Origin: a virus | IMG/VR virus record: IMGVR_UViG_3300021389_000106 | Location: 1-29,386 of that record | Strand: one strand, 5' to 3' | Length of the DNA stretch: 29,386 nucleotides | Shown: piece after piece, positions 5,146 to 8,362 of the stretch | How the letters are laid out: each line of letters opens with the position of its first letter | Position numbering within the stretch: the first letter of the stretch is position 1 | Notes under the pieces: model-generated | Databases searched by the model: none | Told to the model about the DNA's origin: nothing | What the model saw: the letters and a program-made list of their open reading frames with translations, nothing else | Made by a program: the position numbers and the translations under genes

Positions 5146-5217
5146 GGCAGTGTAGTTCAGTGGTAGAGCAGCACCTTTACACGGTGAATGTCGGGGGTGC
5201 GAATCCTCCACGGGGCG
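5146..5217 (+). tRNA. tRNA-Val(UAC)-like gene with mismatched acceptor (chimera or pseudogene)
   Basis: D-arm GTTC-AGTGGTA-GAGC, anticodon arm CACC-TTTACAC-GGTG (UAC) and T-arm GGGGG-TGCGAAT-CCTCC are present, with one G-T pair and a changed T-loop (TGC for TTC). The acceptor strands GGCAGTG and ACGGGGC do not pair: only 2 of 7 match. ACGGGGC is instead perfectly complementary to GCCCCGT of the half-gene at 4434. The gene looks like a tRNA-Val 5' part joined to another tRNA's 3' part. A second, normal tRNA-Val(UAC) lies downstream, so loss of this one would be tolerated. Confidence 0.6.
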
Positions 5218-6853: not shown

Positions 6854-7250
6854 AAAGTTAATTGCTAAGTATATCTCTCTAATCCAAAAAATTCCAGAGA
6901 GATACTACTGGCCTATCTTTGTGTTTCTGTCTCTATACTTCATCGTTCCGATGAGTGAGATCACAGTTACACTGACAGCAATTCTTTACTTCAAGTTTGA
7001 AAAGAATATTGCTCCTGTAGTAGGTAAAGCCACCAAAAGATTGCCTAACTGGTTGAGGTTTGGTGGTGGTCTCGTCTTCTTCCTTGTGATGATTGATGAT
7101 ACTTTATTCTACTTTGCATTAATTGCTCTAGCATTCTGGAGCAGCAAGCAGGTCAGAAAGAAAACTGGCACACCCCCTTTACATGACGATGAGGAGGTGC
7201 TACAATATGGAAGTAACAAGGAACCCGATGAAACCGACAGTCATTCTTGA
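6837..7250 (+). CDS. Membrane protein of unknown function
   Basis: 137 residues. A basic N-terminus is followed by two hydrophobic regions at about residues 24-52 ('WPIFVFLSLYFIVP', 'TLTAILYF') and 75-101 ('GGGLVFFLVMIDD', 'FALIALAFW'), giving three or four membrane passes. The C-terminal tail is charged and acidic. The start overlaps the antitoxin-like gene, so expression is coupled. The next gene begins within its 3' end. No family is recognised. Confidence 0.7.
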   Translation: MTMLVKKLIAKYISLIQKIPERYYWPIFVFLSLYFIVPMSEITVTLTAILYFKFEKNIAPVVGKATKRLPNWLRFGGGLVFFLVMIDDTLFYFALIALAFWSSKQVRKKTGTPPLHDDEEVLQYGSNKEPDETDSHS

Positions 7251-7488
7251 GAGATTTCCTTACCGCTACGTCCAGTGCGGTCTTCTGGAGATCAATGGTA
7301 GACCTGACTACCGCATTCAAAAAATGAATGAATGGACTAAGCGTTATACAGACATGTATTACCTTGACAATCAGATGCAACTCGACACCTGTCTAGAAGA
7401 TTTTGAGTATGTGCGCTGGCTTGATCCCGATCCAGATGTATGTGCCTATCGTAAATTCAATTCTGTGAGAAATCCCTATGTCAATTAA
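7207..7488 (+). CDS. Hypothetical phage protein (93 residues)
   Basis: Start chosen because GAGGAGGT lies 8 bases upstream. The open frame extends to 7183 without a ribosome site. The product (MEVTRNPMKPTVILERFPYR...) is rich in Tyr, Arg and Asp, with a 'WLDPDPDVCAYRK' segment, and soluble. It overlaps both neighbours in different frames (44 and 11 bases), consistent with a compact operon behind talC. Function unknown. Confidence 0.7.
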   Translation: MEVTRNPMKPTVILERFPYRYVQCGLLEINGRPDYRIQKMNEWTKRYTDMYYLDNQMQLDTCLEDFEYVRWLDPDPDVCAYRKFNSVRNPYVN

Positions 7489-7810
7489 GTCCCATCTTGA
7501 AAAAGCAGAAGATTCTGCACGTCAAGCACTTATCAACGCTCTTGCTGAGGGCGAAGATTATTATCTCACTGACCTCTTTAATTTACTAAATGATGTTCGT
7601 GAGTTAAATCAAAAAGTTGGTAATACTATTCGTTTTACTGACAACTCAACACAATGGGAAAGTGACAGACTTGAATACAACTTCAATCTGTCGTCTGATT
7701 ATCTCAATCGTCCTGGTGGTGATATGGATTCCCTAGATAACGTTCTTGATTTCCCTAAAGGAGACATCGTTATTGATAAAAATGATGATGATACTATCAC
7801 CTTCAGTTAG
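7478..7810 (+). CDS. Hypothetical acidic phage protein (110 residues)
   Basis: The ATG lies inside the last codons of the preceding gene. The N-terminal half is helical (SHLEKAEDSARQALINALAEG), and the C-terminus is acidic and Asp-rich (DIVIDKNDDDTITF). No motif or membrane segment is seen and no family is recognised. It ends the tightly packed talC cluster; a 73-base gap follows. Confidence 0.7.
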   Translation: MSIKSHLEKAEDSARQALINALAEGEDYYLTDLFNLLNDVRELNQKVGNTIRFTDNSTQWESDRLEYNFNLSSDYLNRPGGDMDSLDNVLDFPKGDIVIDKNDDDTITFS

Positions 7811-7883
7811 TCTCGGGATGACTCTAAAAGCGCCCTGGTCGGGTGAATCCCCCTTCTACACACACATACACAGGAGACAAATT

Positions 7884-8093
7884 ATGTCCAAAACACCTTA
7901 TGAGCTTCGCTTTGAAATTTTCAAGCAAGCATACAACATGCTACAAGATAACTACTCTATGGAGTTTGAAGTAGCACAACGACAAAATCCAGATGGTTTG
8001 ATCTCGGCAAATTTTGCTGAAAAATATCCATCACTGGAAGATGTGCTTCAGCAAGCAGAAGTCATCAACAACTTTGTTTCCGAGACAAAGTAG
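7884..8093 (+). CDS. Small helical phage protein (69 residues)
   Basis: AGGAG lies 8 bases before the ATG. An open frame reaches back to 7746 but has no ribosome site and overlaps the previous gene. The product 'MSKTPYELRFEIFKQAYNML' continues mostly helical and acidic. Similar short proteins starting with 'KTPYELR' occur, from memory, in many T4-like cyanophages, with no assigned function. Confidence 0.8.
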   Translation: MSKTPYELRFEIFKQAYNMLQDNYSMEFEVAQRQNPDGLISANFAEKYPSLEDVLQQAEVINNFVSETK

Positions 8094-8278
8094 GTTTCCA
8101 ATTTCCTAAAAGAATTGGTGGTGCGGATGGGACTCTCTCCCGCCTGGTTTCTTGCTTCCAGTTAAAGAGCAAGTGGTGGATCCAAATGACCCCTTCCGTG
8201 TGGTTGATTTCCTGTTTCTCAACTGAATAAAAAACAGGTGGCGTGCATGTGTCCTGGGGATTGACCTCCCCTTTTCAT
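8094..8278 (+). other. Array of three tandem, covarying RNA hairpins
   Basis: Three units share the pattern TTTC-N5-TYC-A-rich loop-N5'-G-TGG(T/C)G. Stems are CAATT/AATTG (8099-8103 with 8113-8117), TTGCT/AGCAA (8152-8156 with 8168-8172) and CTGTT/AACAG (8212-8216 with 8233-8237). Each is closed by a constant C-G pair. The stem sequences differ while pairing is kept, and the flanks stay constant, which indicates selection on RNA structure. The C/G-rich tails after each unit also hold small stems (GGGA/TCCC, GGGG/CCCC). No coding frame is convincing. The array leads directly into tRNA-Gly. Confidence 0.55.
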
Positions 8279-8351
8279 GCGGGTGTAGCTCAGATGGTAG
8301 AGCGTCAGTTTTCCAAACTGAACGTCGTCGGTTCAAGTCCGATCTCCCGCT
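8279..8351 (+). tRNA. tRNA-Gly (UCC anticodon)
   Basis: Acceptor GCGGGTG/CTCCCGC (one T-T mismatch at the sixth pair), D-arm GCTC-AGATGGTA-GAGC, anticodon stem TCAGT/ACTGA with loop TTTCCAA, and T-arm GTCGG-TTCAAGT-CCGAT with one wobble. It stands apart from the main tRNA cluster, behind the hairpin array. A T5 run after it merges into the next late promoter. Confidence 0.9.
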
Positions 8352-8354
8352 TTT

Positions 8355-8362
8355 TATAAATA
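8355..8362 (+). promoter_or_regulatory. T4-type late promoter for the first structural gene
   Basis: Exact TATAAATA. The start is expected near 8368, about 29 bases before the fiber-like gene. Confidence 0.75.

Follow-up and report, generated by a model that had tools for sequence, protein, structure and literature searches.

A wcaG RNA with Three Modules, Comprising Tandem Small Pseudoknots, in a Virus Resembling T4-Like Cyanophages

A run of short hairpins directly upstream of a tRNA-Gly gene in a viral genome raises the question of what kind of RNA is encoded there and on which of the neighboring genes it might act. The stretch of DNA analyzed here in its entirety (the window) is IMG/VR virus record IMGVR_UViG_3300021389_000106, which comprises 29,386 bases. 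The three tandem hairpins reported before tRNA-Gly in a first-pass annotation are present, in an array lying between the end of a small open reading frame (ORF) and the tRNA gene (Table 1). The stems CAATT/AATTG, TTGCT/AGCAA, and CTGTT/AACAG had been placed correctly, but the true stems are slightly longer, at 7 bp each, and the hairpin starts lie 53 and 60 bases apart, compared with an original estimate of about 54 to 63. The parts described as kept, namely TTTC, the A-rich loop, and TGG(T/C)G, are real. Three further features had been overlooked: a pseudoknot pairing between the 4 to 5 nucleotides (nt) before the TTT and the loop, a mini-hairpin between modules, and a terminator-like hairpin that follows the array.

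Table 1. Features of the array and its surroundings in the window (strands a and a' are the two sides of the candidate pseudoknot pairing).
Feature	Coordinates	Strand	Description
Partial tRNA match	5153-5209		34.8 bits, model positions 8-63; absent from the ARAGORN calls; may be a degenerate tRNA
Two small ORFs	7183-7810	+	7183-7488, phrog_481; 7478-7810, phrog_604
X motif	7809-7839	+	H-type pseudoknot with UGGU suffix, before ORF 7884-8093
Small ORF	7884-8093	+	69 aa, without a PHROG match; at other loci, its homologues directly adjoin the array; UAG stop lies in module 1 strand a
Module 1	8091-8126	+	a UAGG 8091-8094; UUU 8095-8097; a' CCUA 8105-8108; suffix UGGUGCGG 8119-8126
Hairpin 1	8098-8118	+	stem CCAATTT/GAATTGG, 8098-8104/8112-8118
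First mini-hairpin	8125-8144	+	GGGA 8129-8132 with UCCC 8138-8141; GG..CC extension possible
Module 2	8144-8181	+	a CUGG 8144-8147; UUU; a' CCAG 8158-8161; AAA; suffix UGGUGGAU 8174-8181
Hairpin 2	8151-8173	+	stem CTTGCTT/GAGCAAG, 8151-8157/8167-8173
Second mini-hairpin	8178-8191	+	GG-A-UC/GA-CC, pairing predicted from sequence
Segment after second mini-hairpin			CCUUCCGUGUG; CGUGUG invariant in window-type arrays (invariant columns, alignment A1)
Module 3	8203-8246	+	outside RF01761; a GUUGA 8203-8207; UUU; a' UCAAC 8219-8223; terminal suffix UGGCGUGC 8239-8246
Hairpin 3	8211-8238	+	stem CCTGTTT/AAACAGG, 8211-8217/8232-8238
Terminator-like hairpin	8256-8275	+	GGGGA-UUGACC-UCCCC, then UUUU
tRNA-Gly (UCC)	8279-8351	+
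T4-late-promoter-like sequence	8355-8362		TATAAATA; between tRNA-Gly and the 963-aa ORF
963-aa ORF	8397 (start)		tail-fiber position in relatives

Much of this array belongs to a family that has already been described. Positions 8090 to 8187 of the + strand match the wcaG RNA (RF01761) with 93.8 bits and an E value of 7e-17 over the window (cmscan; gathering cutoff, 42 bits), and the match runs through modules 1 and 2 end to end over all 98 model positions. A GGG..CCC hairpin flanked by two others, a feature of RF01761, is present in the window, as judged by alignment and counted pairs. Weinberg et al. described the motif in 2010, drawing on marine metagenomes and on cyanophages (PMC2864571), and it has been annotated in cyanophage genomes (PMC9602691, PMC9964418). 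All 86 phage records of wcaG are Synechococcus or Prochlorococcus phages; the RNA is present in 25 of the 25 phage genomes that we checked (above the cutoff in 24), with one locus per genome in these complete phages. A pattern scan of bacterial genomes gave, among the matches listed, only chance matches without paired modules. The window shares with RF01761 its T4-like cyanophage hosts and its inter-gene setting, and the neighborhood of talC, small ORFs, tRNAs, and an ORF in the tail-fiber position matches that of T4-like Kyanoviridae cyanophages such as S-CAM4, S-RSM4, and S-WAM2. It differs in adding a third module and a trailing hairpin outside the model. Module 3 alone scores 18.7 bits against RF01761 (E value of 0.4 on 501 bases), which is under the cutoff, and to judge from sequence it is related to wcaG by module anatomy only. 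The earlier statement that no described motif has this form is wrong for modules 1 and 2; module 3 and the modular grammar exceed the Rfam model. On comparative evidence, the array is a three-module version of wcaG, a series of tandem small pseudoknots, and a genuine structured RNA found in viruses of marine cyanobacteria. In the literature searched, we found no function for the wcaG RNA, which is apparently still an orphan.

The claim that the hairpins reflect a selected RNA structure was borne out by comparison with relatives, in which pairing goes well beyond chance. The single-sequence folding energy is unremarkable (z of +1.5), and the evidence for structure is therefore comparative. Relatives came from pattern scans of IMG/VR and from 25 annotated phages, a sample picked by sequence pattern. 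Among 62 distinct module 2 sequences (alignment A2), 681 of 682 cells pair (99.9%, versus 81.7% when shuffled) and the covariation score is 0.592 versus 0.218 when shuffled, comparisons whose significance is overstated because the sequences are related; slid controls, which are free of that weakness, reach at most 0.156. Both helices of module 2 are 99.6 to 100% paired, 127 cells are changed on both sides, and two-sided changes occur at 8 of the 11 pairs. The pseudoknot joins the 4 nt before UUU to the first four loop bases and takes the forms CUGG/CCAG, CAGG/CCUG, CCUG/CAGG, CCAG/CUGG, CUAG/CUAG, and UCAG/CUGA. The stem of module 3 is 100% paired in 28 relatives with 3 of 7 pairs compensated, and its pseudoknot is 98.2% paired in the same number of sequences, with UA, CG, and AU at one pair and the variants GUUG/CAAC, GCUG/CAGU, and GAUG/CAUC in the window subtype. 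This strong covariation indicates that modules 2 and 3, at least, are H-type pseudoknots. The module 1 stem is likewise paired (0.994 among 125 unique core modules); 98% of the core modules could form its pseudoknot, with weak covariation that is not clearly above that of shuffles. A pseudoknot in the leading module, which carries the suffix UGGUGGAG, was rejected, as comparison gave it no support. Each nonterminal module is followed by a mini-hairpin; the first of these in the window, GGGA/UCCC, is 92.9% paired among relatives, and 2 of its 4 pairs show compensatory changes. Outside the helices, the modules keep invariant unpaired UUU, AAA, and UGGYG elements, and such high conservation of unpaired bases suggests that each module binds a shared partner, whatever the mechanism. 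A coding explanation was rejected: no protein frame over modules 2 and 3 is consistently open in the 36 window-type arrays, and the coding sequences annotated across arrays in relatives differ from one another in position and length.

At least about 150 distinct arrays that end in the terminal suffix were found in cyanophage and IMG/VR contigs, and they point to a grammar of modules. The arrays listed hold two to four modules with position-specific suffixes in a strict order: an optional UGGUGGAG, then UGGUGCGG, then an optional UGGUGGAU or UG, and last always UGGCG(A/U)GC or, rarely, UGGCGGGC. Two-module arrays are canonical wcaG. Three-module arrays take one of two forms, with either an additional module in front (S-IOM18, S-RS29, and S-SRM01) or the terminal suffix shifted to module 3 (the window, S-RSM4, S-WAM2, S-RIM32, and others), and four-module arrays also occur among those listed. 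In window-type arrays, the invariant CGUGUG (8194 to 8202 in the window; GUGUGAG in some relatives) may resemble the complement of the conserved loop of the host small RNA Yfr1. Repeated pseudoknots are shared with the STAXI motif, a pseudoknot that is described as occurring in at least two, and usually three, successive copies; there, however, the stated association is with genes for proteins that bind or manipulate DNA, and the likeness is descriptive, with no claim of homology (PMC2864571). A literature search for tandem pseudoknots in phages returned nothing usable.

A companion element, the X motif, occurs upstream of many arrays. Its 34-nt consensus is AGUC-UYGGN-GACU-NNNAAAA-N'R-CCC-UGGU. 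The motif is absent from Rfam 15; at the window copy, a search at an E value of ≤10 gave no match at or above the cutoff. In 45 sequences, the motif is 100% paired, with 58 doubly changed cells and full covariation, including a covarying Y-R pair that breaks the simple helix order. At least 62 distinct copies lie ≤500 nt upstream of wcaG arrays, and among the arrays listed, 87 of 204 have one on the same strand within that distance. In some relatives (e.g., L001, L002, and L251), X stands in for module 1. Copies far from the wcaG locus were seen in HQ317383 (near 9458) and OQ504981 (near 91751).

The surroundings of the arrays bear on which neighbor the RNA serves. Among canonical two- and three-module arrays with enough flank, an intrinsic terminator follows within 90 nt in 102 of the 118 listed, and in 91 of those 102 there is also a TATAAT-like box. 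The terminator loop usually holds a −35-like hexamer (TTGCAT in 51, TTGACA in 17, and TTTACA in 15 of the 102 array-linked composites listed), and the best −35/−10 spacing is 17 in 99 of these 102; similar composites elsewhere in 2.0 Mb number only 28, several of which adjoin arrays that the scan missed. At L008, L012, L022, and about 100 other loci, the combined terminator and promoter lies just behind the array with the U run in the spacer. Promoter-like sites were found ≤110 nt downstream of 102 of 152 arrays and ≤150 nt upstream of 29 of 151 among those listed, versus 82 of 468 random windows, and the next ORF usually starts 66 to 82 nt past the array. On the upstream side, many arrays begin 1 to 4 nt after a stop codon, and two protein families, whose window homologues are phrog_481 and phrog_604, are the commonest neighbors (83 of 150 arrays listed). 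Downstream genes vary; sugar-nucleotide genes are common, alongside hli, tRNA-Gly, tail-fiber, and other genes. The terminator and promoter-like signal, the conserved upstream neighbors, and the variable downstream genes together indicate that most canonical arrays form the 3' end of the transcript that precedes them. As predicted from these signals, canonical arrays are mostly upstream of the next gene's promoter and are not a simple 5' leader. A minority (L058, L268, L297, and L303) have no terminator and are followed directly by the next gene; by their layout, these look like a leader or intercistronic element. A literature search for cyanophage start-site maps returned nothing usable.

This layout departs from the emphasis placed on the family so far. 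Rfam types RF01761 as Cis-reg, and the 2010 paper stresses the downstream genes, proposing a riboswitch candidate tied to exopolysaccharide or high-light genes (PMC2864571), whereas most arrays here precede a terminator and a promoter-like signal. A 5' untranslated position before such genes is also not found in the window, where the array is followed by tRNA-Gly and then the ORF in the tail-fiber position. A 5' untranslated position is a contextual feature of wcaG and not one that defines the family.

We favor a reading, which we regard as evenly balanced between right and wrong, in which the array is a structured 3'-terminal element of the upstream message. Together with the hairpin behind them, the pseudoknots would give the transcript a compact 3' end. 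At canonical loci, termination would produce this end; at the window locus, weak termination or RNase P cleavage before tRNA-Gly would do so. Such an end would shield the message or give rise to a stable 3'-derived RNA, and all modules would also bind one common factor from host or phage. This reading fits the terminator and the separate promoter as well as the conserved upstream neighbors and the variable downstream genes. Of the first-pass suggestion that the hairpins protect the 3' end of the talC message, the 3'-end idea is the best-supported part, but the nearest upstream gene is the small ORF at 7884 to 8093 and not talC. Counting against a 3'-end element are a sequence conservation greater than a plain stability element would need, the minority of loci without a terminator, and the window type itself, which has no promoter between the hairpin and tRNA-Gly, so that some transcription must pass through.

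The same terminators could instead be what the array acts on, by letting polymerase pass, through attenuation or polymerase modification, and so switching on the downstream sugar, hli, tRNA, and tail-fiber genes. The put RNA of HK022 acts by direct modification of polymerase, as does the EAR/epsC element, and EAR is linked to exopolysaccharide genes. Like them, wcaG is a structured RNA upstream of terminators, and the exopolysaccharide link of EAR is a further parallel, but we found no sequence relation. Read-through would fit the terminator directly behind most canonical arrays, the window tRNA-Gly that is reachable only past the 8256-8275 hairpin, and the conservation of the array while terminator stems vary (36 distinct stems among arrays listed), as would be seen for a polymerase-acting element. 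However, downstream genes at canonical loci possess a promoter-like signal of their own past the terminator. Terminator arms are no more complementary to their own array (7.32) than to other arrays (7.18), which does not point to a locus-specific antiterminator, and the small margin above shuffled arms (6.66) is generic. A base-pairing antiterminator was rejected because this complementarity is not locus specific, and we consider read-through in general rather unlikely. With equal reserve, we offer the speculation that wcaG and X might be interchangeable pseudoknot modules of one combinatorial RNA system, two to five in a fixed order at one junction, which would control how transcription ends and restarts there via a hairpin that would serve both as terminator of one transcript and as −35 box of the next promoter.

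A ligand-binding riboswitch, in which each module would be an aptamer and the array would control downstream metabolic genes, draws on module architecture. The preQ1-I and SAM-II riboswitches are small pseudoknots of the H type whose loops are U rich and A rich, as are the wcaG modules with their UUU and AAA loops and invariant flanks, and sugar-nucleotide genes are common downstream. wcaG modules differ in forming arrays and in having no known ligand, and cmscan found no sequence match to either class at an E value of ≤10. In most canonical loci, the array comes before the promoter predicted for the downstream gene, the downstream genes (sugar genes, hli, tRNA-Gly, and tail fiber) have no evident common metabolite, module number and type vary, and no small-molecule binding by wcaG is reported in the literature searched. 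We consider a riboswitch distinctly improbable.

The window subtype is set apart by what follows the array. Its terminator-like hairpin has a 5-bp stem and only four U residues, and stricter criteria for terminators retain 10 of 34 window-type relatives; stems in relatives are compensated (GGGAG../CUCCC and GGGGG../CCCCC) with the UUGACC loop kept, and the U run is longer or absent. A tRNA-Gly promoter inside this hairpin was rejected, since TTGACC would place the −10 within the tRNA. No promoter fits the gap between hairpin and tRNA, so either some polymerases read through or the hairpin terminates inefficiently. At L260 (S-CREM1), L045, and L105, canonical arrays are followed by a tRNA, with a hairpin that has a TTGACA loop and a TATAAT 17 to 18 nt later; lacking a long U run, this hairpin looks like a tRNA promoter. 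A role of the modules as a tRNA-Gly leader that aids tRNA processing or expression would draw on the tRNA-Gly that lies 31 to 37 nt past the last suffix in 24 of 36 window-type arrays, but in the other 12, no tRNA occurs within 260 nt downstream, and most canonical arrays lack a following tRNA. The link to tRNA processing proposed at first pass thus narrows to one subtype, with canonical arrays preceding sugar-nucleotide, hli, and other genes, and we consider a leader function very improbable.

A 3'-end element, the reading that we prefer, would change how this family is approached. If most copies mark the 3' end of the preceding transcript and stand before a separate promoter, ligand searches guided by the downstream genes would be misdirected, looking to the wrong gene. 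Mutants and constructs for probing in cultured cyanophages can be designed directly from the module grammar, the covarying pseudoknots, and the X motif.
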